A stretch of 64,000 bases of DNA from Actinomycetota bacterium (GTDB taxonomy: Bacteria > Actinomycetota > UBA4738 > HRBIN12), in the NCBI GenBank assembly GCA_035640355.1, contig DASQWI010000009.1, positions 1 to 64,000 of the forward strand, written 5' to 3'. A program made the translations under genes and the position numbers. Shown piece by piece: positions 9,329 to 26,737 of the stretch (within the stretch, counting starts at the first letter, position 1; every line of letters starts with the position of its first letter). Below the pieces are notes generated by a model. The model did not search any database. It was not told the DNA's origin and was given only the letters and a program-made list of their open reading frames with translations.

Positions 9329-11779
9329 TCAGATCGACGGCAGCCTGAACCCTGATTTCGCGATGACGTGATCCCGGGAGTCCGCGGCCGCGCGCTTCAC
9401 GGCGGCCCAGTCGACGTGGAGAAGCTTGCCGTGGCGCTTCATCACGCGACCGGCGATCATCACCGTGTCGACGTTACCGGTGTCCATCCCGGCCACGACT
9501 GCGGTCGCGGGATCGTTCAGCGGCGTGACGTTCATCCGATCGGTCCGTAAGAGGATGACGTCCGCCTGCTTCCCGGGCGTAAGCGACCCCGTCTTCGCGT
9601 CGAGGCCGTTCGCCTTCGCGCCGTCGATCGTCGCGCAGGCGAGCACCTCGGCAGGTGTGATCGGCGACTTCCCGTGCGTGGCCGCCATCGCGCGCTGAAG
9701 CGCGAGCACCGAACGCATCTGATTGAACATGTCTGCCGGCACGTTGGTCTCGACGTCGACGCTGAGGCTCGGCCGCAAGCCGCGATCGAGGAACTTTTGG
9801 ATCGGCGGCATCCCGTGACCCATCATCATCTCGACGGGCGACGCGAGCGAGACGGTCCCGCCGGAGTCGACGATCATCTGGATCTCGGTGTCGTTCAGCG
9901 TCGTGCAGTGGATGTACGTCGTGTCGGGTCCAAGGAGGCCGGCCTCCCCCATCTCCTGGACCTTGCCGTCTTGGCCGTACGATCCGACGCCGACGTGCGT
10001 CGTGATCCGCGCACCGGCCTCGCGCGCGAGCTTCCAGTGATCGCGTGAAACCTCGAAGTCGGTGAACTCCGGTCCGGGTGCCGCGAGCGCAAGCGTCAGC
10101 ATCTGGTCGTTCGTGGAGAAGTGCTCGTTCGCCGCCCGAACGAACCAGCTCGGCTGACGCTCCTCCCACTTGCCCCACCACGGGAACCCGTACGCGAACA
10201 CCGCTCGGAGCCCCGAGTCCTTGAGCGCTTGGATCACCGCATCCGTGTGAGCCGGAGAGCCCTGGATGTGCGACCAGTCGAGGAGCGTCGTGATCCCCGC
10301 GTCGATCGCACCGAGCGCCGAGATGAGGTCGCCGACATAGGCGTCCTGGGGGCGATACGCCGGCGCGAGCTTGTGCAGAACGTACGAGATGTAGCTCGAA
10401 CGACCCTCGAGCGGAACGTCGGTTCCGATGTTCCGCAGCAGGCCCTCCCAGATGTGACGGTGGGTGTCGACGAACCCCGGCATGACGATCATGCCGGACG
10501 CGTCGATCACGTCGACTTCCCCGTTCGACAGATCGCGTCCGACGGCGAGGATCCTGTCGCCGTCGATGAGGACGTCGCCTGCGGCGACGTCACCGACCTT
10601 CGCGTCCATGCTCAACACGTTTCCGCCGCGGATCAGCGTCCTGTGCGTCGGCGAGACGCGAAAGTCCATCGACGTGTACAGCCGCGGGATCTCGGCGGCC
10701 TTCGACGGCCGGCTGCCGATCACCAGGCGACGCGCTCGCTTGTAGTTCCGCTTCACGAGCTCCTTGATGTCGCCGAGCTGGAACAGCACGATGCCGAGCA
10801 GGACAAGGACGCCGATGATCATCGGTCCATCGTCAGGTGACAGACCGAGATATGGCAGGACGGTGACGATGAGCGCGAGGAGGATCGCAGCAACCGTCCC
10901 GCCGAGGAACGTGGCCCGGCCGCCCGCGAGCGAAGCGCCTCCGAGGACGGCGGCGGTGATGCTGTTCAACGCGAACGTCGAGCCGATCGTGGCGTTGCCG
11001 ATCGGGGATCGGGCCATGACGAAGAACGCCGCCACTGCCGCCAGAAGAGCCGACAAGACGAGGGCACGAACCCTGACCCAGTTGGTTCTGACTCCGCCGC
11101 GCTTGGCCGCCCGCTCGTCGAAGCCCACCGCTCTCAATGCAAGTCCTGAGCCCGATCCATGGAGCCACAGATCCGCCAGACCTGCTCCAACCAGGATGAC
11201 CATGAAGGCCACGGGGAGCGGACCGAGGCTCGCCTTGAGCGTCGACGCCAGTTCGGGGCTGATGATCCCCTGCGCCGTCGGTCGCAACGTCAGCGAGATC
11301 CCGTCCAGGATGCTCAATGTCGCCAGGGTGGCGATGATCGAGGGTATCTTCAGTCCCTTGATGAGCAGAGCGTTGACGAGGCCGAGCGCGACCCCACACA
11401 GAAGGATGACGCCGATACCCATCACGATCTGCGCGGCGGAGGCGTCGGCGCCGATCAGGAACGAAGCGATGACGACGCCGAGGCCGATCATCCCCCCGAC
11501 CGAGAGATCGAGATACCCGACGAGCAGGGCATGGGTCTGGGCCATCGCAGCCACGATCAACGGCAGCGCCAGGATGAGGATCTGGTTGACGTTGTAGGCG
11601 TTGACGAAGCCCGGGAACCGCGAGTTCGTATACAGGAGCAACCCGGCGACCAGCAGGATCTGCAGCCCGACGGGCATCCACAGGCGGAACCTGACGATCT
11701 TCCGCCACTTGTTCTTGTCGCGGGCATCGCGGATGAGCTTCCGGACGGCGCGTCGCGCCGTGTCGATGCGGTTGCTCAT
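9329..11779 (-). CDS. ABC sugar/nucleoside-type permease fused to an amidohydrolase
   Basis: One uninterrupted 816-residue frame holds two complete proteins. Residues about 30-345 are a BPD_transp_2 permease (RbsC/XylH type) with many membrane helices and the family marks GYLDLSVGGMIGL and AVLGGASLAGGRATFLGG. After a basic linker (KRNYKRARR) residues about 371-816 form a cytosine-deaminase/TRZ-ATZ-type amidohydrolase: DTHRH at 438-442, TTHVG, YIHCT and LSVDVET supply the usual metal ligands. ATG 11779 overlaps the stop of the ATPase gene. An in-frame ATG at residue 371 exists but lacks a ribosome site. The permease should pair with the operon permease at 14778-15824, placing the hydrolase at the inner mouth of the importer. 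Confidence 0.9.
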   Translation of the reverse strand: MSNRIDTARRAVRKLIRDARDKNKWRKIVRFRLWMPVGLQILLVAGLLLYTNSRFPGFVNAYNVNQILILALPLIVAAMAQTHALLVGYLDLSVGGMIGLGVVIASFLIGADASAAQIVMGIGVILLCGVALGLVNALLIKGLKIPSIIATLATLSILDGISLTLRPTAQGIISPELASTLKASLGPLPVAFMVILVGAGLADLWLHGSGSGLALRAVGFDERAAKRGGVRTNWVRVRALVLSALLAAVAAFFVMARSPIGNATIGSTFALNSITAAVLGGASLAGGRATFLGGTVAAILLALIVTVLPYLGLSPDDGPMIIGVLVLLGIVLFQLGDIKELVKRNYKRARRLVIGSRPSKAAEIPRLYTSMDFRVSPTHRTLIRGGNVLSMDAKVGDVAAGDVLIDGDRILAVGRDLSNGEVDVIDASGMIVMPGFVDTHRHIWEGLLRNIGTDVPLEGRSSYISYVLHKLAPAYRPQDAYVGDLISALGAIDAGITTLLDWSHIQGSPAHTDAVIQALKDSGLRAVFAYGFPWWGKWEERQPSWFVRAANEHFSTNDQMLTLALAAPGPEFTDFEVSRDHWKLAREAGARITTHVGVGSYGQDGKVQEMGEAGLLGPDTTYIHCTTLNDTEIQMIVDSGGTVSLASPVEMMMGHGMPPIQKFLDRGLRPSLSVDVETNVPADMFNQMRSVLALQRAMAATHGKSPITPAEVLACATIDGAKANGLDAKTGSLTPGKQADVILLRTDRMNVTPLNDPATAVVAGMDTGNVDTVMIAGRVMKRHGKLLHVDWAAVKRAAADSRDHVIAKSGFRLPSI

Positions 11780-13371
11780 CTCCGGCCGTTCGACCTGGAT
11801 GCCTTCGGCATCGCGATGCCGAGGGGCGAACGTCCCGCTTTGGAGAGACCAGGCCCTCTGACCACCGCCTCGACGATGCGCAGCTCGTCGAGCTCATCGC
11901 CGGGGATCTCCTCGACGATCTGACCCCGGGACATGACGAGCACTCGGTCGCACAGCCCGGAGAGCTCGAGAGGGTCGCTCGACTTGACGAGCATCGCCGT
12001 TCCGGCATTGGTGCGAGTGCGAAGGGCCTTGTAGATGTCGAAGCGGGAACCGACGTCGACGCCCTGCGTGGGTTCGTACGCGAGGATCACTGCCGGCTCC
12101 TTGAGGAACGTGCGGGAAACCGAGACCTTCTGCTGGTTGCCCCCGGAGAGGAACTCGACCGGTTGCTCGAGGGACGGCGTGCGGATCTCCAACTGGCGGA
12201 CGAGATCGGTGACGACGCGCCGCTCCCTGCGTCTCCTCAACAGACCGAACACCGAGAATCGGCGCAAAGCTTGGATCGTCGCGTTCACCTTGACGCCGAG
12301 CACCGACATCAGCGCTTCGCGCCGGCGATCGCCCGGCAGCAGCATCATCCCTGCGCCGACAGCCTCATGGGTCGAGATCAGCGACAATTCCTTGCCATCG
12401 CAGACGATGCGTCCTGCCTTCGGCGGTTGGCGGCCCGCCAAACAGTCGAAGAGCTGAAGCTGCCCGTTGCCTTCCGCACCGGCGACCCCGACGATCTCAC
12501 CTCGGTCCAACGTGAAGCTGACCGGCCCGAACGACTGACCCTGAAGACCGTCGACTTCGAGCACCCCGCGACGCTCGTCCACGTTGAGGGCCGGTGGGGG
12601 GAAAGCCGCCTCGAATGGACGACCAACGATCAACTCGACCAGTGCCGGCTCCGACGTGGTCTTCGCGTCGAACGTGCCCTGGTTCCGACCGTCCCGAAGG
12701 ACGGTGATCCGGTCGGCGATCTCGAGCACCTCGGGCAGTCGATGACTCACGTACACCACCCCGACGCCGCGACGGCTGCAGGCGGTGACGGTCCGGTGCA
12801 ACGCTTCCACCTCGTGCGGCCCGAGCGCGGTGGTTGGCTCGTCGAGCAAGAGTACCTTCGGGTTGGTCACCAGCGCCTTCGCGACCTCGAAGAGCTGGCG
12901 GTCGGCAAGGCTGAGAAAGCCGGCCGGAGCGTCCGGGAACAGCTCGAGGTCGAGGTCGAACTCGGCCAGAAGCCTCCTGGCCCACTTCTTCCTCCGCCAA
13001 AACGGCGGCCGCTGGTCGTCGGGGGCGGCCAGGAACAGGTTGTTCTTCACCGGTTCCGGAAGGATCAGCGACGTGTCCTGGTATGCCATGGCCAGACCGA
13101 GCTTCTGGGCCAAAGCCGGGGAGTCGCGGCGAAGCGGCCGACCGCCGATCTCGACCGTCCCCACATCGGGGTCGATGAACCCGCTCGCGATGCCGAGGAG
13201 GGTCGACTTCCCCGACCCGTTCTCGCCGACGACCGCGTGGACCTCGCCGGCGCGACAGTCGAAGCTCACGTCGGTCAGCGCCCGAACGGCCCCGAACTGC
13301 CGCGAGACGCGGCGCAGCTCGAGGACCACACGGGGGAAGGCCGACCCTCCTCCGGTATCGCCTTTCTCCAA
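11776..13371 (-). CDS. Double-domain ABC importer ATPase (RbsA/nucleoside type)
   Basis: 531 residues with two ABC domains. The first has GENGSGKSTLL, LSLADRQLFEVAKAL and LLLDEPT; the second is degenerate (GAEGNGQLQL in place of Walker A, LSGGNQQKVSVSR, ILAYEPTQGVDVGSR), as is normal for carbohydrate-uptake CUT2 ATPases. The start is TTG 13371, one base after the binding-protein stop; a start at an internal GTG near residue 15 is equally possible. Its stop overlaps the fused permease start, so translation is probably coupled. Confidence 0.93.
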   Translation of the reverse strand: MEKGDTGGGSAFPRVVLELRRVSRQFGAVRALTDVSFDCRAGEVHAVVGENGSGKSTLLGIASGFIDPDVGTVEIGGRPLRRDSPALAQKLGLAMAYQDTSLILPEPVKNNLFLAAPDDQRPPFWRRKKWARRLLAEFDLDLELFPDAPAGFLSLADRQLFEVAKALVTNPKVLLLDEPTTALGPHEVEALHRTVTACSRRGVGVVYVSHRLPEVLEIADRITVLRDGRNQGTFDAKTTSEPALVELIVGRPFEAAFPPPALNVDERRGVLEVDGLQGQSFGPVSFTLDRGEIVGVAGAEGNGQLQLFDCLAGRQPPKAGRIVCDGKELSLISTHEAVGAGMMLLPGDRRREALMSVLGVKVNATIQALRRFSVFGLLRRRRERRVVTDLVRQLEIRTPSLEQPVEFLSGGNQQKVSVSRTFLKEPAVILAYEPTQGVDVGSRFDIYKALRTRTNAGTAMLVKSSDPLELSGLCDRVLVMSRGQIVEEIPGDELDELRIVEAVVRGPGLSKAGRSPLGIAMPKASRSNGRR

Positions 13372-13372
13372 G

Positions 13373-14698
13373 TCAGCCGCCGAACATCAGCTGCAGGACC
13401 GGATCCGGAACCAGCGACGTGCCCGAAACGGCCTCGTGGACACGGTTGGGATCGCAGTCGTCCTCCGTCACCTGCCGCATCACGTGTGGCACGACGACCT
13501 CCGCCGGGATCTCGGCTCCCTTGAGCGACATCATCGCCGCGGTGACGCCGATCCGTGATTGGAAGTTCCCTCCCGCCGAGTAGAAGATGTTGTAGGAGGG
13601 CTCGTCCCGCTCCGCCCAGTCACAGAACAGGTTCTGCTCGTCCGTGCGCAACGCGACGGTCAGGTTCTTGACCGGGATCCCGAGGTCCTCGTAGGTCTGC
13701 AGGCCGATGTACATACCGTCGGCGTACTCGTAGGCCCAACCTCTGATGTCGGGGTTCGTCGTCAGCAACCCTTGATAGACACCGGGGATCGCCGGTGGGA
13801 ACCAACTGGTATCACCGGTCGTGCTGTTCTCGTTGGCCGGCGGGTTGACCAGGTCGACGCCATCGGCAAGGGCGTCCACCGCGCACTGTTGCCAGCCGAG
13901 CGACAGCGCGTTGCCGGGGGTTCCTCCGAGGAGCGCCACTTCGCCGTTGCCGACACCCTCGTTGAGGACCTCGGCGAAGCTGTTGCCGAGGGCACACAGA
14001 TCCTCTCCCACGACGCTGAGGTAGTCCTCGCCGGGAGTGAGCGCCCCTTCTTGACCGGGAAGACCGACCCAGCCCGCGGAGAACGGAACGTACGGGATGC
14101 CGGCGTCGTCGGCCTCCTTGATGGCGTCGGCGATGGCGATACCCATGTCGGGATAACCGACGATGAAGTCGACCCCTCGCTGGATCAGGAACCGTATGTC
14201 GTTGGCGTGGACGGCGGGGTCGGGGTCGAAATCGGCCTCGGTGGAGACGATGGTCCCGATCTCGTCGTAGGTCAGCGCCTGGAGGATAGCCTCCATGTGG
14301 CTCACGGCGCGCCACACGTTCACTGTGTCTCCGCCGCCGTCGGCGTAGCCCATGATCAGGTCACCGCCGGTTCCCGTGTCGCACTCCTGGTTGTTCCAAC
14401 ACTCCATCGCCTTGTCGATGGTGGCTTGATCGAGGTCCTGATCGGCCCTGGCCACGGACGCCAAGATGATGTTCCAGCTCGCCTCGTCCGACGGTTCCAC
14501 GGGGCCAAGCGCCTTGTCGATCAACGCGGTGTCGGCATCGGTGCTCTCGCCGAACTCCGCAAGTGGTCCGGTGGCGCCGGTGGCGGTGCCAGTTTGTGCG
14601 GGTCCCGTGGGTGTCCCGTCATCGTCATCGCCCCCACCGCACGCGGCCGCCACCAACGCAAGTGCCGCGATGACCGCGGCGATCCTGATCCGGTGCAT
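13373..14698 (-). CDS. Substrate-binding lipoprotein of the CUT2-like importer
   Basis: 441 residues: signal peptide with lipobox ALVAAACGGG (Cys about 20), Asp/Thr/Gly-rich linker, then a periplasmic-binding-protein type I fold (DFIVGYPDMGIAIADAIKEA, NGEVALLGGTPGNA, GWAYEYADGMYIGL). It captures the transported compound outside the membrane. ATG 14698 is preceded by GGGAGGAGGAAC. The gene lies between the two permeases, with the ATPase immediately downstream. Ligand unknown; the neighbouring amidohydrolases suggest a nitrogen heterocycle or amide rather than a plain sugar. Confidence 0.92.
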   Translation of the reverse strand: MHRIRIAAVIAALALVAAACGGGDDDDGTPTGPAQTGTATGATGPLAEFGESTDADTALIDKALGPVEPSDEASWNIILASVARADQDLDQATIDKAMECWNNQECDTGTGGDLIMGYADGGGDTVNVWRAVSHMEAILQALTYDEIGTIVSTEADFDPDPAVHANDIRFLIQRGVDFIVGYPDMGIAIADAIKEADDAGIPYVPFSAGWVGLPGQEGALTPGEDYLSVVGEDLCALGNSFAEVLNEGVGNGEVALLGGTPGNALSLGWQQCAVDALADGVDLVNPPANENSTTGDTSWFPPAIPGVYQGLLTTNPDIRGWAYEYADGMYIGLQTYEDLGIPVKNLTVALRTDEQNLFCDWAERDEPSYNIFYSAGGNFQSRIGVTAAMMSLKGAEIPAEVVVPHVMRQVTEDDCDPNRVHEAVSGTSLVPDPVLQLMFGG

Positions 14699-14777: not shown

Positions 14778-15824
14778 TCAATCCGAACGATGGACGGCCG
14801 GCGGCTGCGAGGCATCCGGGCGTCTCCGTTCTCGAAGCACCTGCTCGACACCGCGGATGATGCGATCTCCCGAGACGAGCATGCCGCCGATGATCACCAG
14901 TCCGAACACCACGAATTGGAGCGACGTGGGCAGGCCCATCGTTCGCAACATCTGGTTGAGACCGGTGAGGAAGATCGCGGCGACGAACGTCGACAACGGG
15001 CTTGCCAGCCCTCCGGTGAGGGAGGCGCCTCCGATCACCACTGCAGCGATCGGGCCGAGGAGATACAACCTTCCGACCGCGACCCCGGGAGTGCGCAGCA
15101 GTCCTGCGAGCGCGACTCCCGCAAGCGCATAGAAGACGGCGGCCACGACGTAGACCAGGATCTGGTTCAAGTTCACCCTGACCCCGACCACGTGGGAGGC
15201 CACCGGGTTGGCCCCCACCACTTGGAACCTTCGACCGATCGCCGTATAGCGAAGGCCGAGGATCAGGACGATGGTGAGCGCGGCGCCACCCCAGAACACA
15301 GGGCTCACGCCGAGGATGCGGTTGGATGTCCACTCGGAGAGACCGCGTGGCACGGGGCTTGAAACCGGGAAGGTACCTCCGTAGCGGTTCACCACGCCGA
15401 TCACGATGAGACCCACGGCGAGCGTGGTGATGAGGGCGTTCAGCTTGAACCCGCCGATCAGGATGCCGTTGACGAGTCCGATCGTCGCTGCGACGGCGAT
15501 CGCGGTGACAACGGCGACCACGATGTTCTCGTTCGAGCCGTCCCCGACACCGACCATGATGACGGCCGCCAGACTCATCGTGCCTGGGACGCTGAGGTCG
15601 ATCCCGCCGGTCATGACGACCAACATCTGACCAAGGGCAACGATGCCCAGGACCGCTCCATAAGGAGCGATGGCACGGACGGCGACACGACCGAGTGTGG
15701 CTGGAGCCCAGATCGAGGCGACGATCACGAGCACGAGGAGCGCGATGTACACGGGCAAGTACCGGGACGCCACGACGAACGACGTCAACGCGGACGAGGG
15801 TGTCGGCTTGCGCTGCTCGATCAT
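14778..15824 (-). CDS. ABC permease, ribose/nucleoside type
   Basis: 348-residue BPD_transp_2 membrane protein with eight or more hydrophobic helices and the markers GGIDLSVPGTMSL and VIGGASLTGG. It is the stand-alone second permease, expected to pair with the fused permease-amidohydrolase. ATG 15824 overlaps the stop of the amidohydrolase gene upstream (ATGA). Confidence 0.93.
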   Translation of the reverse strand: MIEQRKPTPSSALTSFVVASRYLPVYIALLVLVIVASIWAPATLGRVAVRAIAPYGAVLGIVALGQMLVVMTGGIDLSVPGTMSLAAVIMVGVGDGSNENIVVAVVTAIAVAATIGLVNGILIGGFKLNALITTLAVGLIVIGVVNRYGGTFPVSSPVPRGLSEWTSNRILGVSPVFWGGAALTIVLILGLRYTAIGRRFQVVGANPVASHVVGVRVNLNQILVYVVAAVFYALAGVALAGLLRTPGVAVGRLYLLGPIAAVVIGGASLTGGLASPLSTFVAAIFLTGLNQMLRTMGLPTSLQFVVFGLVIIGGMLVSGDRIIRGVEQVLRERRRPDASQPPAVHRSD

Positions 15825-17149
15825 CCGTCACCTCCCGCCCCAGAACGCACGACGAGAACCCCGGCGGTTGCGACACGCTCTCGGGCGGACATGGCCAACG
15901 CGCGGGCGCGCTCGACATCGGCGTCGAGGACTCCGTCCCGCACCAGCGCGCGTCCCGCGGCGAAGACCCAGCCAACGTTCGACGTATCCATCCCCCACAC
16001 CACCGCACCGATGGGGTCGTTGATCGGGTAGATGTTCGGCCGGTCTGTCCGGAGAACGACAACGTCGGCCTGCTTGCCAGGCTCGAGCGATCCTGTGACC
16101 GTGTGCAGCCCGGCCGCCACCGCTCCATCGATCGTCGCGAACCGGATGACGTCGCGAGTGCTCATCAATTTCGGAAGCGCGGCCTTCCCCGCGAGCTTTC
16201 GGTCGAACACGACGGCGTGTTGCAGGGAAATCGTCTCGCGCATCTGCGCGAACAGGTCCCCGGGGGCGACGCGCTCGTCGTCCACGCCAAGGGCCGGCCG
16301 GACGTCGTGATCGATCAGCAATTGGATGGGCGGCGCCCTGAGTCCACCGGCCATCTCGCTCGACGGCGTCACCGAGACGGACGTGCCGGACGACGCCAGC
16401 GCCCTCGCCGCCGCGTCATCGAGCCCGAACGGGTGAACGAGCGTCACGTCCGATCCCAGCACGCCTCGCTCTGCCAGCCGTGCGATGGCGTTTGATCCGG
16501 GAACGTTCGAGCCGCCGTGGATGTGGATGCGCATTCCGAGTTCACGCGAGAGCGCCACCGGATCGCCGTCAGAACGGACACCGTCCGAGGTCAGGTCGAG
16601 CCCGAGGGCGATCGTCGTCCTCGGTCCCACTTCCTCACGCATGCGCGTGATGCCGGCTCGGGTCGGCATGCGCAGGCCGCCGTTCGAAGCCTCGACGAGA
16701 CCGCGAACGAACACGGTTCGCGCGCCCGCGTCGGCGTGAGCCTGAAGCGCTGCGGCGGCGAGCGCCGGGTCGACCGGGAGATCCGACCAGTCGACCACCG
16801 TGGTGATCCCGGCTTCGACCGCGCCCAGCAAGCCGACAAGCGTCGCCGCGTACACGTCATCGGGTTGGAGTTGACCGCCGAGCTTCGCTGGGTCCACGAC
16901 CGCGCCGTTCGTCGACGCGTCGCCCAGGTTCCTGAACAACGACCGCCACGTGTGGCGGTGGGTGTCGACGAAGCCCGGCATGACGATCGTTTCGCTGGCG
17001 TCGACGTTCTCGGCATCGCGGGCGCGAACGCCGGAGCCGACCTCGGCGATCCGGCCGTCCTCGATCAGCACGTCGGCGGTGGCGAAGTTCGGCGTCTTCT
17101 TCCCGAGCGTGAGGACGCATCCGCCGCGGAGCAGGGTGCGGCTCGTCAC
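15821..17149 (-). CDS. Amidohydrolase (cytosine deaminase/TRZ-ATZ type)
   Basis: 442-residue metal-dependent hydrolase of the amidohydrolase superfamily. The barrel metal site is visible as HRH at 64-66 (GFVDTHRH), IHIHGG, TLVHPFG and GVDDE; the C-terminal LEPGKQADVVVLR strand is typical. Relatives deaminate or dechlorinate purine, pyrimidine and s-triazine rings. It closely resembles the hydrolase half of 9329-11779, so the operon holds two paralogues, probably for related substrates. Start GTG 17149; it is the first gene of the leftward operon. Confidence 0.92.
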   Translation of the reverse strand: MTSRTLLRGGCVLTLGKKTPNFATADVLIEDGRIAEVGSGVRARDAENVDASETIVMPGFVDTHRHTWRSLFRNLGDASTNGAVVDPAKLGGQLQPDDVYAATLVGLLGAVEAGITTVVDWSDLPVDPALAAAALQAHADAGARTVFVRGLVEASNGGLRMPTRAGITRMREEVGPRTTIALGLDLTSDGVRSDGDPVALSRELGMRIHIHGGSNVPGSNAIARLAERGVLGSDVTLVHPFGLDDAAARALASSGTSVSVTPSSEMAGGLRAPPIQLLIDHDVRPALGVDDERVAPGDLFAQMRETISLQHAVVFDRKLAGKAALPKLMSTRDVIRFATIDGAVAAGLHTVTGSLEPGKQADVVVLRTDRPNIYPINDPIGAVVWGMDTSNVGWVFAAGRALVRDGVLDADVERARALAMSARERVATAGVLVVRSGAGGDG

Positions 17150-17418: not shown

Positions 17419-18024
17419 TCAGCCGTCGCGACCAACGACGAACCAGATCCCGTGGACCGGCTCGTCGCCGAGGTTCCACAGCCGATGCGGCTGCGTGGAC
17501 TCGAAGGAGATCGAGTCGCCCGGTCCGAGCTCGTGCCGCTCGAACGTGAGCTGGACGCCGAGCCGTCCGGAGATGATGTAGCCGTACTCTCGTCCGGGGT
17601 GTCGCATGAGCCGGTCGTCGGGAGACGACGACCCTCCAACGTCGTAGATCACATGGAGAAAGTCGACGTCCTCGTCGTCGCTGGTGAGACGCTCCCACCG
17701 GACGCCGGAGGCCAGGTCGAGCGCGTGTCGCTCCTCCGAGCGCACCACCGATCCCGGCGCCGATCCCTCAACTGTCGTAGTCCCGCCGGCGATCGCCACG
17801 GCCGCCTCGTGGCGATGGACTTGAAACACGTGATCGAGCGAGACGCCGAGCTCCGAGACGATCGCGTACAGCGTGCTGACCGAGGGCTTGGATTGTCCGG
17901 ATTCGATCTGCGATATCAGGCTGGCCGAGACGCCGAGTCGTCGTGCGAGCTCGCGCTGGCTGATCCTGACGCGTTCCCGCTCCTCGCGAAGGCGTGAACC
18001 GATCTCGCCAAGCTCACCCGTCAC
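17419..18024 (-). CDS. XRE-cupin transcriptional regulator
   Basis: 201 residues: N-terminal HTH (about 8-62, ISQRELARRLGVSASLISQIESG) and C-terminal cupin sensor domain (GREYGYIISGRLGVQL, LGPGDSISFESTQPHRLWN). Such proteins (PuuR-like) often control polyamine, amino-acid or nitrogen-compound catabolism. GTG 18024 is preceded by a purine-rich AGGGGGGAT. It is divergent from the M24-E1-cupin operon and lies 269 bases from the amidohydrolase operon, so it could regulate both. Confidence 0.92.
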   Translation of the reverse strand: MTGELGEIGSRLREERERVRISQRELARRLGVSASLISQIESGQSKPSVSTLYAIVSELGVSLDHVFQVHRHEAAVAIAGGTTTVEGSAPGSVVRSEERHALDLASGVRWERLTSDDEDVDFLHVIYDVGGSSSPDDRLMRHPGREYGYIISGRLGVQLTFERHELGPGDSISFESTQPHRLWNLGDEPVHGIWFVVGRDG

Positions 18025-18054
18025 ACATCCCCCCTGCCTTCCGCGCACCCTAAC

Positions 18055-18094
18055 ACGCGACATTCCTTCCACTCGTGCTGAACGACCGTCGCGT
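18055..18094. promoter_or_regulatory. Inverted repeat between the XRE-cupin gene and the M24 operon
   Basis: ACGCGAC (18055-18061) and GTCGCGT (18088-18094) are exact 7-bp arms separated by 26 bases in the divergent intergenic region. The spacing would suit a dimer-of-dimers or loop, but arms this short may be chance in high-GC DNA. Confidence 0.3.
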
Positions 18095-18217
18095 ATCACT
18101 GGACGATGCAGCCGGTGACTTGCGGGTGGGCCGGATGACGTGGGACGCTCCGGCCCAATATCGTGCAGTCCCGCTTTCCGGTACGCGCCGGCCGGACGCT
18201 CGAGGGAGGTGCCGGGC

Positions 18218-19471
18218 ATGGATGGATTCCCCGTTGCGACGACGCCATCGCCGGGTCTTCACGGCGTCGATTGGGAGAACCGCGTCGACTTCGGGCGCCT
18301 CCGCGAGTACCGGCTGTCGCGCGTCCGCGAGCAGCTCGACGCCTCCGACCTGGGCGCCGTCCTGCTGTTCGAGACCAGCAACATCCGCTACGCGACGAGC
18401 ACCCACATCGGGTACTGGGCATTCAACAAAGGCGAACGGTACGCGCTCGTGACGCGCACGGGTCCGCCGCGCATCTGGGACTTCGGATCGGCGGCACGCG
18501 CGCACCGATTGCAGCTGCCGCAGCTGTACGACGAGACGAACGCCGTCGGCGGGAATACCGGGCTGCAGGGCGCGATCTCGCCGGCTGTCGGGCTGCAACG
18601 CCGCGCCGCCGAGGAGATCCGGTCGGTGCTCAAGGACAACGGGGTCGGCGACATGCCCCTGGGGGTCGACGTGGCCGAGACGTCGGTGTTCCTCGAGCTG
18701 CAGCGGGCCGGGATCGATGTCCGCGACGGCCAACAGGCGATGATGCTCGCGAGGGAGATCAAGAGCCCCGACGAGATCACGCTGCTTACGCAGGCCTGCG
18801 CAATGGTCGACGGCGTCTACCAGGACATCTTCGAGTTCCTGAAGCCGGGCGTGCGCGAGAGCGACGTCGTTGCACTCGCGCATGCCCGCCTCTTCGAGAT
18901 GGGCTCGGAGTTCGTCGAAGCCATCAACTCGATCGCCGGCGAGCGCTGCAGCCCGCACCCCCACGTCTTCTCGGACCGGCTGATCCGCCCCGGCGACCAG
19001 GCGTACTTCGACATCATCCACGTGAACAACGGCTACCGGACCTGTTACTACCGCACGTTCGTCGTCGGTCGTGCGACGCAAGCCCAGCGCGACGCGTTCA
19101 CCCGCTCGCGCGAGTGGATGGACGCGGCCATCGACCTGGTGAAGCCGGGCAACACGACCGATCAGATCGCGGCGGTGTGGCCGAAGGCGGAGGAGTTCGG
19201 GTTCAAGGACGAGTTCGACGCGTTCGGCCTGCAGTTCGGGCACGGGGTCGGCGTCGGCCTCCACGAGCGTCCGATCATCAGCCGGTTGAACTCGTTCGAG
19301 GAACCGATCGAGCTCAGGGAGGGCATGCTCTTCGCCCTCGAGACGTACTGCCCGGCAACCGATGGGCGATCGGCGGCGCGGATCGAGGAAGAGGTCGTGG
19401 TGACCGAGTCGGGCCCCAAGGTCATCACGCTGTTCCCGTGCGAAGAGCTGATGGTCGCCAACGAGTACTGA
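18218..19471 (+). CDS. M24 (Xaa-Pro peptidase/creatinase/DddP-like) enzyme with altered metal site
   Basis: 417 residues: N-terminal creatinase-type domain (about 1-175) and C-terminal pita-bread domain. The metal-site order is recognisable: Asp265 (YFDII), then Cys276 where metallopeptidases have the second Asp (GYRTCYYRT), HGVGVGLHERP, MLFALETY and RIEEEVVV. Loss of one bridging Asp argues against a normal two-metal aminopeptidase and for a lyase or hydrolase like creatinase or DddP. ATG 18218 follows GGGAGGT. The E1 alpha gene starts one base after its stop, so the product likely feeds that pathway. Confidence 0.88.
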   Translation: MDGFPVATTPSPGLHGVDWENRVDFGRLREYRLSRVREQLDASDLGAVLLFETSNIRYATSTHIGYWAFNKGERYALVTRTGPPRIWDFGSAARAHRLQLPQLYDETNAVGGNTGLQGAISPAVGLQRRAAEEIRSVLKDNGVGDMPLGVDVAETSVFLELQRAGIDVRDGQQAMMLAREIKSPDEITLLTQACAMVDGVYQDIFEFLKPGVRESDVVALAHARLFEMGSEFVEAINSIAGERCSPHPHVFSDRLIRPGDQAYFDIIHVNNGYRTCYYRTFVVGRATQAQRDAFTRSREWMDAAIDLVKPGNTTDQIAAVWPKAEEFGFKDEFDAFGLQFGHGVGVGLHERPIISRLNSFEEPIELREGMLFALETYCPATDGRSAARIEEEVVVTESGPKVITLFPCEELMVANEY

Positions 19472-19472
19472 C

Positions 19473-20489
19473 ATGAGCAAGGCCCTTCGCTCTCGCAGCG
19501 ACAAGCCGCGGACCGACGAAGCCGTTCGGCTCGATATCTACCGGATGATGGTCGAGGCTCGTCTGTTCGAGCGGCGCGTGCACGACCTGTTCCTGCAAGG
19601 GCTGGTCAAAGGCACATCGCACCTGGCGCTCGGTCAGGAGGCGATCGCCGCCGGCTACGCGGCGGTCCTGCAGCCGAACGACCTCGTGTACTGCACGTAT
19701 CGCGGTCACGTCCACACGCTGCTCCGCGGTGCACCGATGTCCGCCCTCATGGCCGAGCTGCTCGGCAGGGCGAACGGTATCTGCGGCGGTAAGGGCGGCT
19801 CGATGCACCTCACCGATGTGTCGAAGGGCGCGATGGGGTCCTACGCGATCGTCGGCGCGCACATGCCGATCGCCGCCGGCGCGGCGTGGGCGGCGAAGGA
19901 ACGGGAGACTGGACAGGTCGTCGTGTGCTTCTTCGGTGACGGGACGACCAACATCGGCGCGTTCCACGAGGCGCTCAACTTCGCCGTGGTGTGGAAACTC
20001 CCGGTTGTGTTCGTCTGCGAGAACAACCTGTACATGGAGTACACGCCGATCCGTTCGGTGACGGCCGTCGAGAACCCGGCCGCCGACCGCGCGAGCGCGT
20101 ACGCCCTCGAGCCGATCCTCGTCGACGGCAACGACCCCGACCAGATGCACGCGGTCGCCCGGCGAACGGTGGACCTCGCTCGGAGCGGGGACGGTCCGTC
20201 GTTGGTGGAGGCGCGGACGTACCGCCACGGTGGCCATTCGCGCGCGGACCCCGCCAAGTACCGGCCGGAAGAGGAGGTCGCCGAGTGGGTGGCCCGCGAT
20301 CCGATCCCCTCGCTCCGCGAGCGATTGATTACCGACGGCGTCGACGCGAGCACGCTCGACGGGATCGATCGCGCGGCCGAGCGCGTCGTCGACGACGCCA
20401 CCGCGGAGGCGCAGGCGGGGCCGCCGCCCGACCGCTCGACGCTCCTCACCGAGCTGTGGGCGGACGGAGGTTCCGAGTGGCGGAACTGA
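19473..20489 (+). CDS. TPP-dependent 2-oxoacid/acetoin dehydrogenase E1, alpha subunit
   Basis: 338 residues. The thiamine-diphosphate motif is present as GDGTTNIGAFHEALNFA with the closing ENNLYMEY, and the N-terminal RGHVHTLLRG and GKGGSMHL are typical of acetoin or branched-chain E1 alpha. It forms a heterotetramer with the next gene product and decarboxylates a 2-oxoacid or cleaves an acyloin. No lipoyl E2 or E3 is encoded nearby, so the subunits must borrow them or act without them. Confidence 0.95.
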   Translation: MSKALRSRSDKPRTDEAVRLDIYRMMVEARLFERRVHDLFLQGLVKGTSHLALGQEAIAAGYAAVLQPNDLVYCTYRGHVHTLLRGAPMSALMAELLGRANGICGGKGGSMHLTDVSKGAMGSYAIVGAHMPIAAGAAWAAKERETGQVVVCFFGDGTTNIGAFHEALNFAVVWKLPVVFVCENNLYMEYTPIRSVTAVENPAADRASAYALEPILVDGNDPDQMHAVARRTVDLARSGDGPSLVEARTYRHGGHSRADPAKYRPEEEVAEWVARDPIPSLRERLITDGVDASTLDGIDRAAERVVDDATAEAQAGPPPDRSTLLTELWADGGSEWRN

Positions 20490-21451
20490 CCTACCGAGAG
20501 GCGGTCTCACGCGCGATCGCGCAGGAGATGGAGCGCGACGAAACCGTCTACTTCATTGGCGAGGACGTCGCGGCAGCGGGCGGAGTCTTCAAGACGACGG
20601 AGGGACTGCTCGAGCGGTTCGGTCCGCGTCGCGTTCGGGACACACCGATCTCCGAACAGGCGATCGTCGGCGCCGTGATGGGCGGAGCCATGAACGGCCT
20701 CCGACCGATCGCAGAGATCATGTTCAGTGACTTCTTCGCCGTGTGCTGGGACATGATCGCCAATCAGATCGCGAAGACGCGGTACATGACGAATGGACAG
20801 GTCGCCCTTCCGCTGGTGATCCGGACGGCGAACGGCGGCGGCGTCCGCTTCGGCGCTCAGCACTCGCAGAGCGCCGAGGCATGGGCGATGGCGATCCCGG
20901 GACTCAAGGTCGTCGTCCCGTCGAACCCAACCGACATGATCGGGCTGTTCGCCGCGGCCGTTCGCGATCCCGATCCGGTGATCGTCGTCGAGCCGAAAGC
21001 GCTGTACGCGATGAAGGCCGACGTTCCCGACGGCGAGATCGTCGACCGGCTCGGCGCGGCCACCGTGCGTCGCGAGGGATCCGACGTGACGATCTGCGCG
21101 CTGGGCTCGATGGTCCATCGAGCGATGGAGGCTGCCGAACGACTCGCTGCGGACGGCATCGGCGCCGAGGTCATCGACGTACGTTCGCTCGTCCCGCTCG
21201 ACACCCAGTCGATCCTCGCGTCGACGTCCAAGACCGGGCGGTTCGTGACCGTCGAGGAGAGCCCGCGGCTCTGCGGGTGGGGCGCAGAGGTCGCATCGAT
21301 CGTCGCGGAAGAGGTCTTCTACGACCTCGACGGTCCTGTCGTCCGTATCACGACACCGCACATCCCGCTGCCCTCCACCGACGCGCTCGAGGACCTGGCG
21401 ATCCCGTCAACCGACGTGATCGTGGAACGGGTCGAGGCGTCGATGGGATGA
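20477..21451 (+). CDS. TPP-dependent 2-oxoacid/acetoin dehydrogenase E1, beta subunit
   Basis: 324-residue transketolase-like beta subunit: EDVAAAGGVFKTTEGL, IAEIMFSDFF, GGGVRFGAQHSQSAEAW and a C-terminal domain with EVIDVRSLVPLD. GTG 20477 overlaps the alpha gene by 13 bases in another frame and gives the expected AELTYREAV start; the frame is open far upstream but that part is only a shadow of the alpha gene. Its stop overlaps the bicupin start. Confidence 0.95.
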   Translation: MAELTYREAVSRAIAQEMERDETVYFIGEDVAAAGGVFKTTEGLLERFGPRRVRDTPISEQAIVGAVMGGAMNGLRPIAEIMFSDFFAVCWDMIANQIAKTRYMTNGQVALPLVIRTANGGGVRFGAQHSQSAEAWAMAIPGLKVVVPSNPTDMIGLFAAAVRDPDPVIVVEPKALYAMKADVPDGEIVDRLGAATVRREGSDVTICALGSMVHRAMEAAERLAADGIGAEVIDVRSLVPLDTQSILASTSKTGRFVTVEESPRLCGWGAEVASIVAEEVFYDLDGPVVRITTPHIPLPSTDALEDLAIPSTDVIVERVEASMG

Positions 21452-22404
21452 CGACCCCATCGAGGCCGGTCCGCCAGGGGGAAGCGCTCGTGAGCCCGAG
21501 CCACGTTGTCCGGAGCCGCGCGGACGCCACGTACGACGTCCCTCCGCTGTACGAGCCGCACGTTCAAGGATTCCGGAGGTGGACGGTCGTCGACGAGACC
21601 GCCGGATCGGTTCACACTGGGTTCGCCCTCGGCGAGATGGACCCGGGCGGCCGTATCGACCCACACGTTCACTCATTCGAAGAGAGCCTCTACGTCCTGG
21701 AGGGCGAGGTCGTGTGGCGGACTCCCGGCGCGGCCGTGCTCATGCGACCGGGCGATTACGGCGTGATCCCCGTCGGCATCACGCACGCATTGCGGAACGA
21801 AGGGACGACGACGGCGCGCTGGGCCGCGATGACGGCCCCGGTCCCCCGGCGCGCGCATCACGGCGACACCTACTTCGTCCCGGAGCTCGCCGACGCCGAC
21901 CCCGTGCCCGTCGATCCGCGCGATCCGCGAACGCGTTCGTTCGGTCACATCGACCCCGCGAACATGGACGTGGGGAACCAACGTCAGGAGATGCTGGCCC
22001 TCTCCGCGAGCATGCGGACGGCTCTGCTCGTGTACAGCGGCATCACCGTGAAGATGATGGTGGACACCGATCTCGGCGCGAACCTGTCGACGATGTTCAT
22101 GGTGCAGTACGAGACGCGCGGTGTCGTCGGCCCGCACGACCACCCGCTCGAGGAGACCTACTTGATCCTGGACGGCCTGGTCGACGCGACGTTCGACGGC
22201 GCTCAGTACCGGCTCGAGCCCGGTGACGTCGCATGGGCGGGCGTGGGATGCGTGCATTCGTTCACGAACCCTGGACCCGGAACTGTGCGATGGCTCGAGA
22301 CGCAGGCGCCGCAGCCACCGGCCAGGCACTCGTACCGATTCGCGCGCGACTGGGATTACCTGCAACAGGCGCTGACCGAACTGACGGAGGCGGTGCGGGA
22401 ATGA
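21448..22404 (+). CDS. Bicupin protein
   Basis: 318 residues with two cupin barrels. The first has HVHSFEESLYVLEGEV and PGDYGVIPVGITHAL; the second HDHPLEETYLILDGLV and PGDVAWAGVGCVHSF. Both keep the His-x-His...Glu...His metal set. The two-barrel layout resembles ureidoglycine aminohydrolase and other ring- or amide-processing enzymes, which would fit the amidohydrolases upstream, but the sequence alone does not fix the reaction. Translation is probably coupled to E1 beta (ATGA). Confidence 0.85.
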   Translation: MTTPSRPVRQGEALVSPSHVVRSRADATYDVPPLYEPHVQGFRRWTVVDETAGSVHTGFALGEMDPGGRIDPHVHSFEESLYVLEGEVVWRTPGAAVLMRPGDYGVIPVGITHALRNEGTTTARWAAMTAPVPRRAHHGDTYFVPELADADPVPVDPRDPRTRSFGHIDPANMDVGNQRQEMLALSASMRTALLVYSGITVKMMVDTDLGANLSTMFMVQYETRGVVGPHDHPLEETYLILDGLVDATFDGAQYRLEPGDVAWAGVGCVHSFTNPGPGTVRWLETQAPQPPARHSYRFARDWDYLQQALTELTEAVRE

Positions 22405-23102
22405 GCGATGGCGTGGTGGTGGTCGTCGGTGCGACGGCCGGTCTGGGCAAGGAGGTGGCTCGCCACTATGCGGATGCCGACCGCGATGTGGTGATCACCG
22501 GACGCGACGAGGCGCGCGTGAAAGAGGTCGCCGATGAGCTCGGCGGGAAGACGACGGGGGTCGCACTCGACCTGTCGCGGCCGAACGAGATCGCGGACGC
22601 GCTCCGCGGTGTCGGCGAGGTCCACCGGCTCGTGCTCGCCGGCGTCCAGCGCGACCAGAACACGATGCGCGATTACGACGTGGACGCGGCCATCCGACTG
22701 GTGACCCTCAAGCTCGTCGGCTACACCGAGGTCGTGCACGTGCTGATGGATCGGCTCCGAGACGACTCGTCCATCCTCATCTTCGGCGGGCTGGCGAAGG
22801 AACACCCCTACCCCGGCTCGATGACGGTCACGACGATCAACCATGGCGTCGACGGCCTCGTGCGGTCGCTCACATTCGAGCTCGCGCCGATCCGAGTGAA
22901 CGCGATCCATCCGGGAATCGTTGAAGACAGCCCGTTCTGGGGTGGGAAGACCGAAGCGCTCCACGGACATCGCGCACGAACGACGACCGGGCGTCTGGTT
23001 CAGATGCAGGACATCGTCGACGCGGCCGTCATGATGCTGGAGAACCCCTCGATCGTCGGCGCGGAGCTCAGGGTGGACGCCGGCTGGTCTCTTCCTCTGT
23101 AG
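22401..23102 (+). CDS. SDR-fold protein lacking the usual catalytic Tyr and Lys
   Basis: 233 residues with a Rossmann nucleotide site (VVGATAGLGKEVA) and ITGRDEARV, VRVNAIHPG and GAELRVDAGW-like elements of short-chain dehydrogenases. The place of the YxxxK motif reads TVTTINHGVDGLVRSL, with neither Tyr nor Lys, and the usual catalytic Ser strand is LIFGGLAKEH. It may bind a nucleotide without classical redox chemistry, or use other residues. ATG 22401 overlaps the bicupin stop. Confidence 0.85.
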   Translation: MSDGVVVVVGATAGLGKEVARHYADADRDVVITGRDEARVKEVADELGGKTTGVALDLSRPNEIADALRGVGEVHRLVLAGVQRDQNTMRDYDVDAAIRLVTLKLVGYTEVVHVLMDRLRDDSSILIFGGLAKEHPYPGSMTVTTINHGVDGLVRSLTFELAPIRVNAIHPGIVEDSPFWGGKTEALHGHRARTTTGRLVQMQDIVDAAVMMLENPSIVGAELRVDAGWSLPL

Positions 23103-23106
23103 GCAC

Positions 23107-23973
23107 ATGACCACCGTCGCCGTTCTGGGCACCGGACGGATGGGCGGCGCCATGGTCGGAACGCTGTCGCGCGCCGGCTTCGACGTCGTGGCGTGGAATC
23201 GATCGAGCGGAAAGGTCGCGCACGTGGCAGCGTCTGCCGGCGCGAACGTCGCCGATAGCCCGACCGAAGCGATCCGCGACGCGGATGTCGTCGTCAGCAG
23301 CCTCGCGGACGACGCCGCGGTCGAGTCCGTCTTTGGGCAGACGACCGATGCGTTGCATGAGTCGCAGGTCGTGTTGGAGATGAGCACGATCTCCCCCGTC
23401 ACGACCCGCCGGGTCGGCGAGCGGGTGCTCGCTCGGGGCGCCGGCTACCTCGACGCGCCGGTCTCCGGCAGCGTGTCGCTCGTAGAGGCGGGGAACCTAA
23501 CGATCATGGTCGGGGGCGACGGGGCAACGCTCGACCGAGGTCGTCCCGTGCTCGAGGCCCTCGCGGGCAAGATCCTGCACGTCGGCGCCCTCGGTGCGGG
23601 GGCGACGATGAAGCTCGCGGTCAACGGGCTCGTCCACGGCCTCAACGTCGCTCTCTCGGAGTCGCTGGTCCTCGCCGAACGCGCCGGCGTCGACCGATCG
23701 GAGGCGTACGAGGTGTTCGCCTCGGGGGCGGCGGCGGCGCCGTTCGTCCTGTACAAGCGCGCTGCCTACGAACGTCCGGACGACACGCCCGTCGCGTTTA
23801 GCCTCGAGCTGGTGGCGAAGGACCTCGATCTGATCCTCGGTCTGGCCGACGACGTGGGCCTGCCGCTGAAGCAGGCCATGATCAACCGCGAAGCCGTCGA
23901 TGAGGCCATCAGCGCCGGTCTCGGCGAACGCGACCTCAGCGCGCTAGCCGTTCACCTTCGATCGCTCTCGTAA
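23107..23973 (+). CDS. 3-hydroxyisobutyrate/6-phosphogluconate-dehydrogenase-family oxidoreductase
   Basis: 288-residue NAD(P)-dependent beta-hydroxyacid dehydrogenase. Seen are the dinucleotide motif VLGTGRMGGAM, the substrate motif APVSGSVSLVEAGNLTIMVGG and the catalytic lysine region GATMKLAVNGLVHG. It probably oxidises or reduces a 3-hydroxy acid or semialdehyde made by the preceding enzymes. It starts 4 bases after the SDR-like gene. Confidence 0.92.
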   Translation: MTTVAVLGTGRMGGAMVGTLSRAGFDVVAWNRSSGKVAHVAASAGANVADSPTEAIRDADVVVSSLADDAAVESVFGQTTDALHESQVVLEMSTISPVTTRRVGERVLARGAGYLDAPVSGSVSLVEAGNLTIMVGGDGATLDRGRPVLEALAGKILHVGALGAGATMKLAVNGLVHGLNVALSESLVLAERAGVDRSEAYEVFASGAAAAPFVLYKRAAYERPDDTPVAFSLELVAKDLDLILGLADDVGLPLKQAMINREAVDEAISAGLGERDLSALAVHLRSLS

Positions 23974-24004: not shown

Positions 24005-24514
24005 GTGAACGGAGCGGTCCTACGCGACGCGTTCGGCCACCACGTGTGGGCGACGCTCCGATTGCTCGACGTCTGCCTCGAGCTCACTGCCGACCAGCTC
24101 GCGACGACGGTTCCGGGAACGTACGGGTCGATCCTCGACACAGCGCGCCACGTGGTCGGAGCAGATGCGTGGTACCTGTCCAGGATGACCGACGATACGG
24201 CCTTCCGGGTCGACGAGGAGCAGATGAATCTCGCGGAGATCCACGCCGTCATGGAGCGGAACAGCCAAGCGTGGACCCGCATCATCGAAGGCGACATCGA
24301 CCCCGATGCGGTCGAGGTCACCCCGCAGGAGGATGGATCCGAGTTCCACACGCCGAAAGGGATCCGGATCGCACAGGCGCTTCACCACGGGACCGATCAT
24401 CGCAGCCAGATCTGCACGGCGATCACGACGCTCGGGATGGAGCCGCCCGACATCGACGTGTGGGCCTACGGCGAGCTGTACGGTCGGACGGCGGAGATCC
24501 CGGCGCAGTCCTGA
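24005..24514 (+). CDS. DinB-family protein
   Basis: 169-residue four-helix DinB/YfiT-like protein. The three likely metal His residues occur at LDTARHVVGAD and HHGTDHRSQI. Members include thiol-dependent transferases, for example on mycothiol or bacillithiol, and many of unknown function. Start GTG 24005. It lies 31 bases after the dehydrogenase and before a probable new promoter, so it may close the catabolic operon. Confidence 0.87.
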   Translation: MNGAVLRDAFGHHVWATLRLLDVCLELTADQLATTVPGTYGSILDTARHVVGADAWYLSRMTDDTAFRVDEEQMNLAEIHAVMERNSQAWTRIIEGDIDPDAVEVTPQEDGSEFHTPKGIRIAQALHHGTDHRSQICTAITTLGMEPPDIDVWAYGELYGRTAEIPAQS

Positions 24515-24585
24515 GACCGCTTTCCATCGTCTGAATCCCACCGGCGCTGGAACGGCTCGGTCGTTTCGGCATCGCGCACCCCGTC

Positions 24586-24615
24586 TTGCGCGCCGCGAGC
24601 GGACGGACCTAGCAT
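24586..24615 (+). promoter_or_regulatory. Possible promoter of the polyamine-type ABC operon
   Basis: TTGCGC (24586-24591), 18 bases, TAGCAT (24610-24615), about 45 bases before the binding-protein ATG. The same minus-10 hexamer appears at two other proposed promoters in the window. Confidence 0.4.
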
Positions 24616-24659
24616 CGCCGCAAGTTTCCGCTCCGAGCCGCGAACGCGAGGGGGTACCG

Positions 24660-25805
24660 ATGCCGGCCGTACGCGATCCGCTCCTTAGCCTTCCCATGGA
24701 ACGCCGCACGCTCCTGAAGGGGATCGGTGCAGCCGGCCTCTTGGGGTCGGGGGTGCTCGCTGCATGCCGCCGCAACATCGACGAGCGAGCCGCGCCGGTC
24801 GCGCCGGAGGAGCGGCCGCCCATCCAAGAGGAGCCGGGGACCCTCAAGGTCTACGAGTGGGCCGGATACGAGGCCAAGTGGCTGTGGCGTGACTATGCAC
24901 GGGCCGGCTTCCCGGAACCTCGATTCGCGTTCTTCACCAACACGCAGGAGGCGATCGCGCGAACGGTCGGCGGGTACACGTGGGACCTCTCCCACCCCGA
25001 GTCGACCGAGTTCCCCCAGTACGTCGAGGAAGGGCTGATCCAGCCGTGGGACACGTCCCTCCTCCAGACCTGGGACAGCCTGAACCCCGAGCTCCAGCGG
25101 CTCGGCATGTGGGAGGACCAGCAGTACGAGGTGGTGCTCGACTGGGGCTACTCGGGCGTGATCATCCGAAACGATCACGTCGACCCGGATATCAACTCGT
25201 ACAACTACCTACTGGACGACGCCTACGAGGGTCACATCTCGTGGTGGGACACCGTCGCCATGCTCACGATCGCCGGACTGGTCCTCGATGTCGAATCGGA
25301 CCCGAACGCGATGACGTCCGAGGACCTCGAGGCATCAAAGAACCTGCTGATATCCAAGAAGAAGAACCTCCATTCGATCTGGACCGACTACACGCAGATG
25401 TGGGACAACGTCCGCACAGGTGCGGTGTGGACCGCGTACTCGTGGCCGGACACGTACGTCGTGCTGAAGGACGAGGTTCCCGTCAGCTACAGCAAGCCGA
25501 GCGAGGGCGTGCTCGGATGGGCGGAGGGCCTGATCCTGCACAGCGAGTCGGAGAACTATTTCCACGCGCACGAGTACGCCGATGCATGGGCCGCGCCCGA
25601 CGTGGGACAGCGGCTCGTCAGCACGTGGGGCTATGGACACTCCAACCTCGACATCGACCTTGCCCAGATCGATCCGGAGGTCGTCGACGTGTTCGGCCTG
25701 GACGACCCGATCGGGTCGCTTCAGGCGACCGTCTTCGGGCAGTACGTCCCCCAGGACGTCAACCAGGCGTACCAGCGCGCGTGGGATGAGGTGAAGGCGG
25801 CCTGA
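24660..25805 (+). CDS. Spermidine/putrescine-type ABC substrate-binding lipoprotein
   Basis: 381 residues. The N-terminus has a Tat-like RRTLLKG followed by a hydrophobic stretch and lipobox (SGVLAACRR), so it is a likely Tat-exported lipoprotein. The mature part is PotD-like: LKVYEWAGYEAKW at the start, DWGYSGVIIRNDHV, WWDTVAMLTIAGL and GYGHSNLD. ATG 24660 follows GAGGGGGT. The two permeases and ATPase follow immediately. Confidence 0.92.
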   Translation: MPAVRDPLLSLPMERRTLLKGIGAAGLLGSGVLAACRRNIDERAAPVAPEERPPIQEEPGTLKVYEWAGYEAKWLWRDYARAGFPEPRFAFFTNTQEAIARTVGGYTWDLSHPESTEFPQYVEEGLIQPWDTSLLQTWDSLNPELQRLGMWEDQQYEVVLDWGYSGVIIRNDHVDPDINSYNYLLDDAYEGHISWWDTVAMLTIAGLVLDVESDPNAMTSEDLEASKNLLISKKKNLHSIWTDYTQMWDNVRTGAVWTAYSWPDTYVVLKDEVPVSYSKPSEGVLGWAEGLILHSESENYFHAHEYADAWAAPDVGQRLVSTWGYGHSNLDIDLAQIDPEVVDVFGLDDPIGSLQATVFGQYVPQDVNQAYQRAWDEVKAA

Positions 25806-25825
25806 GGTAGGCCGCTGGCGACCGC

Positions 25826-26737
25826 GTGGCGACGCAAGCGGCGGTCGACGCGGCGAGCCCGCCGATCCAACGCGGGACGCGATATCAGCGCGCGCTCGGC
25901 ACGCTCGCGCTCGTGTCGCCGTCGGTCGGATACCTCGTCCTGTTCTTCCTGATCCCCGTTCTCACCGTGGCGGCGTACAGCATCGGGCTGCTGACGTTGA
26001 CGTCGCGGGATGCGTATCTGTCCGTTCAGCCGTGGCGCGACTTCCTGTTCGGCTCGATCTATCTCGGCGTGTTCTGGAGGTCGATCGAGATGGCCCTGGT
26101 CGTCTCGGTGATCTCGGTCGTTCTCGCCTACCCGGTGGCATACGTGCTGGCGCTCGTGGCGGGCTCGCGCAAGTACACGCTCCTCCTGGTGATCATCGCG
26201 CCATTCCTGACGAGCTACCTGCTCCGGGTCCTCGCGTGGCGCGTGATCCTCCAGGAGCAGGGCGTGGTGAACTCGTTCCTGCGCACGGTCGGCGTCATCG
26301 GAAGCGGCGAATCGATCCCCTGGCTGTTCAACAGCCGGTTCGCCGTCTACCTGGTCCTCGCCTACGCGTGGGTTCCGTTCGTTGCGCTACCGATCTTCGT
26401 GGCGCTCGAGAGCCTCGACCACGCCCTGCTCGAAGCGTCGAGCGACCTCGGCGCGAGCCGGTGGCGGACGTTTCGAACGGTTACGTTCCCGCTGTCGATG
26501 CCCGGAGTCATCGCCGCGTTCGTGTTCGTGTTCATCCCGACGATCGGCGAGTTCGTCACGCCGTCGCTCGTCGGCGGCGTCAACAACTTCATGTTCGGCA
26601 ACGCGATCCAGGGCGCGTTCCTGCTGGGGCGGGATTGGCAGTTCGGGTCCGCGATGGCCGTGTTCCTGGTCGCGGTAGTGGCGCTGCTGTTCGTACTGTT
26701 CGGGCGGTTCCTCAACCCGCAGACGGTGGCCGAGTGA
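25826..26737 (+). CDS. Polyamine-type ABC permease 1 (PotB-like)
   Basis: 303-residue BPD_transp_1 permease with about six membrane helices. The coupling-loop EAA motif reads ASSDLGASRWRTFRTVTFPLSMPG. GTG 25826 starts 20 bases after the binding-protein gene; the stop overlaps the next permease start (GTGA). Confidence 0.92.
   Translation: MATQAAVDAASPPIQRGTRYQRALGTLALVSPSVGYLVLFFLIPVLTVAAYSIGLLTLTSRDAYLSVQPWRDFLFGSIYLGVFWRSIEMALVVSVISVVLAYPVAYVLALVAGSRKYTLLLVIIAPFLTSYLLRVLAWRVILQEQGVVNSFLRTVGVIGSGESIPWLFNSRFAVYLVLAYAWVPFVALPIFVALESLDHALLEASSDLGASRWRTFRTVTFPLSMPGVIAAFVFVFIPTIGEFVTPSLVGGVNNFMFGNAIQGAFLLGRDWQFGSAMAVFLVAVVALLFVLFGRFLNPQTVAE

Follow-up and report, generated by a model that had tools for sequence, protein, structure and literature searches.

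In a genome of an Actinomycetota bacterium, a complete ABC importer permease and a complete amidohydrolase are encoded as one continuous protein. The fusion belongs to a conserved lineage of two phyla and is no one-off, and we regard the fusion itself as settled. We favor, with some reserve, the reading that the enzyme sits where a CUT2-type importer opens to the cytoplasm, so that uptake and the first hydrolytic step are physically linked. The features discussed below are listed in Table 1; "the window" denotes the whole stretch of DNA that was analyzed (64,000 nucleotides).

The gene is a single frame of 816 codons that reads from an ATG at 11779 down to 9329, while the plus strand of this interval has several stops. 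The permease domain (Pfam: BPD_transp_2, PF02653) matches residues 65–328 (E-value 8.5e-20) and the Pfam domain Amidohydro_1 matches residues 431–779 (E-value 1.1e-34), both above cut-off; the NCBIfam model PRK08204 spans residues 379–809 at 517 bits (cut-off 391). Both domains are complete by sequence in this one frame. The first-pass annotation had described an 816-codon frame with a permease at about 30–345 and an amidohydrolase at about 371–816, leaving the strand unstated, and these borders prove correct by open reading frame, Pfam and NCBIfam.

Table 1. Coordinates in the window of the fusion gene, its parts and the neighboring genes
Feature	Position	Strand	Evidence and remarks
Permease-amidohydrolase fusion gene	9329..11779	-	CUT2-type permease ~25-345, linker 346-378, PRK08204-type amidohydrolase 379-816
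Amidohydrolase half	9332..10645	-	NCBIfam, alignments; ligands H440, H442, H595, H624, D675; V598
Linker, residues 346-378	10646..10744	-	Alignment of 39 sequences; end of conserved basic helix, then variable stretch
Permease half	10730..11779	-	BPD_transp_2, hydropathy, AlphaFold: ten long predicted helices, pLDDT mostly 80-94; basic N-terminus
Importer ATPase, two nucleotide-binding domains, AraG/XylG/RbsA-like	11776..13371	-	Pfam, NCBIfam, motifs
Solute-binding lipoprotein	13373..14698	-	Peripla_BP_4; start put at 14698 (lipobox LVAAAC), not longer frame from 14851
Second importer permease (permease 2), unfused	14778..15824	-	Pfam, NCBIfam, permease tree; clade apart from fused permease
Second PRK08204-like hydrolase (AH2)	15821..17149	-	Pfam, NCBIfam; all five metal ligands kept in window
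HTH-cupin regulator	17419..18219	-	Pfam; conserved nearby; 5' part of frame overlaps divergent M24 gene
M24-family hydrolase (prolidase/DddP-like)	18140..19471	+	Pfam; conserved
2-oxoacid dehydrogenase E1 alpha	19473..20489	+	Pfam, NCBIfam; conserved
2-oxoacid dehydrogenase E1 beta	20504..21451	+	Domain matches; conserved
Bicupin	21448..22404	+	Domain matches; conserved
SDR oxidoreductase	22233..23102	+	Conserved; true start further in than ORF start
3-hydroxyisobutyrate/tartronate-semialdehyde-reductase-like (HIBADH-like) dehydrogenase	23107..23973	+	Domain matches; conserved

How widespread is the fusion? Our homologue scan, with one genome per species, gave 53 loci, the majority of which match residues 1–816. 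The same domain order is found intact and full-length, with the same junction, in 38 further loci at 55–83% identity. The carriers belong to Actinomycetota (Acidimicrobiia and the window's own class) and Chloroflexota (Anaerolineae); one of them, Desertimonas flava (L018), is a cultured isolate, and most other sources are metagenome-assembled genomes. At the thresholds used the fusion is rare in the sampled genomes (Actinomycetota: 5 of 397; Chloroflexota: 1 of 301; Pseudomonadota: 0 of 299). Open-frame length is uninformative as a screen for other long BPD_transp_2 proteins in high-GC genomes. Copies labelled Fimbriimonadaceae (L011) and Acidobacteria (L052) group with or closely match the Actinomycetota fusions and sit on short or odd contigs; they are likely binning errors and not extra phyla.

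The surrounding operon is that of a CUT2-type importer. The fusion ATG shares bases with the stop of the upstream ATPase gene (ATGA), so that translation of the fusion is probably coupled to that of the importer. The ATPase gives full-length matches to AraG/XylG/RbsA models, with a Walker A motif GENGSGKS in its first domain and a degenerate GAEGNGQ in the second. The binding protein scores 57 bits on Peripla_BP_4 (Pfam cut-off 35), and the nearest solved folds to its model (pLDDT 89.7) are ribose-binding proteins. Both permeases are above the Pfam cut-off for BPD_transp_2. The second permease and the separate amidohydrolase previously noted in the operon are both present as stated, and the order AH2 – permease 2 – binding protein – ATPase – fusion is kept throughout the Actinomycetota loci. 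A two-domain ATPase, BPD_transp_2 permeases and a binding protein with the ribose-binding fold are common to this operon and the CUT2 importers (AraFGH, RbsABC, XylFGH, LsrABCD); in contrast to them, its two permeases are unlike each other, and one of them continues into a complete enzyme. The importer lies below every NCBIfam equivalog cut-off, which suggests that its ligand is not a named CUT2 one. The HTH-cupin regulator probably controls the locus; its real start should lie further in, since at the 5' end its frame runs into the divergent M24 gene. In D. flava, a related importer without the fusion (L074, 3919–10688) comes with two homologous binding proteins in tandem, and no hydrolase was found in that operon.

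The fused hydrolase has the fold and the HxH/H/H/D metal set of the TRZ/ATZ amidohydrolases, such as AtzA, 8-oxoguanine deaminase and SAH/MTA deaminase. Its best solved match by Foldseek is AtzA (4v1x; E-value 1e-24, TM about 0.8 by target), followed by adenosine-type, isocytosine and 8-oxoguanine deaminases. The metal motifs had been called intact, and indeed all five ligands (HxH, beta-5 His, beta-6 His and beta-8 Asp, in the order given in Table 1) are present and invariant in all fused copies. The fused hydrolase differs from the TRZ/ATZ enzymes in its low identity to them (20–26%), in being joined to a membrane protein and in one active-site residue. TRZ/ATZ deaminases typically have a Glu three residues past the beta-5 His; this position is Glu in the aligned 8-oxoguanine deaminase and Val598 in every fused copy, so that a plain deaminase is not the safest guess. 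Sequence comparison shows no such Glu in the stand-alone relatives either, and the case for a purine, pyrimidine or triazine deaminase is weakened, since the residue is absent from the whole subfamily. That subfamily, NCBIfam PRK08204 (NF006056), consists of uncharacterised amidohydrolases, and the relatives of the fused hydrolase in the sampled genomes are otherwise stand-alone. A small cyclic or nitrogen-containing substrate is only a guess.

AH2 scores 359 bits on PRK08204, under the cut-off. All 30 fusion loci with a sufficiently long flanking contig carry an AH2-type gene, which immediately precedes permease 2 in 19 Actinomycetota loci and takes varying places in 11 Chloroflexota loci. 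At least one metal ligand is lost in 11 of the 28 AH2 copies compared (a twelfth row is merely cut by a contig end), the changes being D675 to G or E, H595 to Q, R or K, and H442 to R or Q. Copies with such a loss are nevertheless under purifying selection, with pN/pS of 0.29 for L044 and L014 (both D675G) and 0.19 for L027 and L028 (both H595Q). AH2 evolves faster and, as counted above, always accompanies the fusion. Relatives of these amidohydrolases are dimers or larger, and AtzA is hexameric; AH2 therefore most likely docks on the tethered hydrolase, and we infer that it may serve as a partner subunit.

Across a divergent promoter region from the importer operon lie the M24, E1 alpha, E1 beta, bicupin, SDR and HIBADH-like genes, a module found again with the fusion in further genomes. 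No E2 or E3 genes were seen adjoining it (window 18140–23973). The same module recurs with stand-alone PRK08204 hydrolases and no fusion (L061, L064, L065, L070, L071, L076 and L077), in Actinomycetota as well as Chloroflexota; at L077 (1320–2326; KatS3mg011 assembly) a frameshift apparently divides the E1 beta gene. LivF/LivG-like ATPase pairs are found near the stand-alone hydrolases L042, L050, L058, L059, L062 and L077, and Peripla_BP_6 binding proteins also near those of L042 and L077. Since the stand-alone relatives share the module and several are near other ABC importers, the hydrolase appears to work in a single catabolic module that draws on different importers, and so would be functionally tied to import; in one lineage it became joined to the importer itself.

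The bicupin and the tartronate-semialdehyde-reductase-like gene hint at ureides or allantoin, and both are far below the curated cut-offs. An aromatic pathway was considered from a stand-alone close relative (62%; L042, 7989–12149) beside an HpaB/HpaC-type flavin monooxygenase pair and Liv-type importer genes; we rejected it, as this is one case only. Where the aligned prolidase 1pv9 shows SDITRT, the M24 protein reads CYYRT; it therefore seems to lack one usual metal-ligand Asp, as do creatinase-like members. Directly downstream of the module (24306–28724) is a polyamine-type ABC importer, with PotABC-like genes and a solute-binding protein.

Where does the hydrolase lie relative to the membrane? 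Lys and Arg outnumber Asp and Glu by 13 to 3 in residues 1–45 and by 9 to 2 in residues 345–380. By the positive-inside rule, an even number of helices flanked at either end by basic stretches would put the hydrolase in the cytoplasm, so that its location on the cytoplasmic face, as first proposed, is very probable from the ten predicted helices and the basic flanks. No solved structure matching the permease half was found by sequence. The last membrane helix is followed by a conserved basic helix (GDLKELVKRNYRRARRLVxGSR), a short variable stretch and then the hydrolase. In the AlphaFold model both domains are good and the linker is poor (mean pLDDT 78.8, pTM 0.58), with pLDDT about 50 across residues 351–360 and low at 355–357; the model thus does not fix the relative position of the domains. 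Compared with L002, L003 and L008, the window has pN/pS of 0.24–0.26 in the permease, 0.16–0.20 in the hydrolase and 0.38–0.55 in the linker. These values indicate that both halves are under selection as proteins, the hydrolase more constrained than the permease and the linker the least conserved part.

We propose that the lipoprotein would capture a small substrate, which the fused permease and permease 2 would import, powered by the two-domain ATPase. The tethered hydrolase, held by the basic helix and short linker, would carry out the first intracellular step near the channel exit; AH2 would dock on it as a partner, non-catalytic in some lineages, and the M24, E1, bicupin, SDR and HIBADH-like enzymes would then process the product. 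This coupling is supported by an intact fusion of single origin in two phyla, the conserved operon order, the invariant ligands of a hydrolase more constrained than the permease, the ribose-binding-type fold of the binding protein, the even helix number with basic ends, the stand-alone relatives that share the module and in several cases neighbor other ABC importers, and the constant presence of AH2, which selection maintains even where the metal site is gone. Against it count the variable linker, the poorly modelled domain orientation and the ATPase domains, which also occupy the cytoplasmic face; direct substrate transfer would need a particular geometry, and the stand-alone hydrolases evidently work untethered. 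More speculatively, the tethered hydrolase and AH2, which is without its metal site in some lineages, might form an asymmetric enzyme under the importer that cleaves substrate as soon as it arrives, transport and catalysis each controlling the other; we put this forward only as a tentative extension.

The main rival to coupling is that the tether has a regulatory or assembly role: the hydrolase would sense substrate or product and gate the importer, or the fusion would fix 1:1 production and membrane location. Some ABC importers do have cytosolic regulatory domains, e.g., the C-terminal domains of MetN and ModC, and the loss of the metal site in many AH2 copies indicates that non-catalytic roles occur in this system. 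However, a pure regulator would need neither the five invariant ligands of the fused copies nor a hydrolase more constrained than the permease, and we hold this explanation to be rather unlikely, if a serious one.

A second rival is that the hydrolase is made, also or mainly, from an internal start or is freed by proteolysis, the free enzyme doing the work. The window has an in-frame ATG at residue 371, and the linker varies in sequence and shows weak order. However, the Met371 codon is not conserved among homologues, and a Shine-Dalgarno-like motif with a candidate start occurs in this region in only 7 of 32 sequences, the window not among them; a start at Met371 is rejected on these two grounds. 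Checked for a stop or frameshift near residues 350–371, the linker is stop-free in the 39-sequence alignment, so that no fused copy (0 of 39) is split there. A separate hydrolase of either kind appears improbable.

Even less probable is a neutral fusion, harmless and therefore kept. In our trees, which are quick trees without bootstrap, all fused hydrolases fall in one clade (SH-aLRT 99) whose nearest neighbors are unfused Chloroflexota copies, and the Actinomycetota fusions form one clade (100) inside the Chloroflexota fusions. The simplest reading of these nested clades is that there was probably one fusion in Chloroflexota and later one transfer. The permease tree likewise unites the fused permeases and sets permease 2 apart as a clade of its own, though exactly where the fused set is rooted is weakly supported. 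With a single origin, ubiquity within the clade is no independent evidence of function. However, no fission was seen in the fusion clade, i.e., no reversal over the Chloroflexota-to-Actinomycetota divergence (about 55–60% identity), and the basic helix past the last membrane segment has been conserved. Finally, an artefact of sequencing, assembly or annotation can be dismissed almost outright: although the sources are mostly metagenome-assembled and two such loci (L044 and L046) have a frameshifted hydrolase half, the same junction recurs across dozens of independent assemblies and in the cultured D. flava, and the 38 full-length homologues rule out a missed stop.

That transporters couple to the enzyme acting next has often been proposed, mostly on the basis of weak or transient contacts. 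Transporter–enzyme fusions are already known, among them those of SulP transporters with carbonic anhydrase (Felce and Saier 2004, as cited in PMC6458275). These likewise combine a transporter and an enzyme in one chain, the enzyme acting on the transporter's substrate, but they involve a secondary transporter, another enzyme and another protein family, whereas the importer here is driven by ATP. The first-pass annotation knew of no description of a fusion like the present one, and we likewise found neither a report of such a permease joined to an amidohydrolase in an ABC importer nor a paper on PRK08204 in the open-access literature, most subscription papers lying outside this scope.

In this ATP-driven importer, selection has kept importer and enzyme in one chain across two phyla. 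Relatives of the enzyme that remain unfused in this pathway offer natural controls, which makes the benefit of tethering directly testable. The fusion would also link the importer, the PRK08204 amidohydrolase subfamily and the catabolic module to a common substrate.
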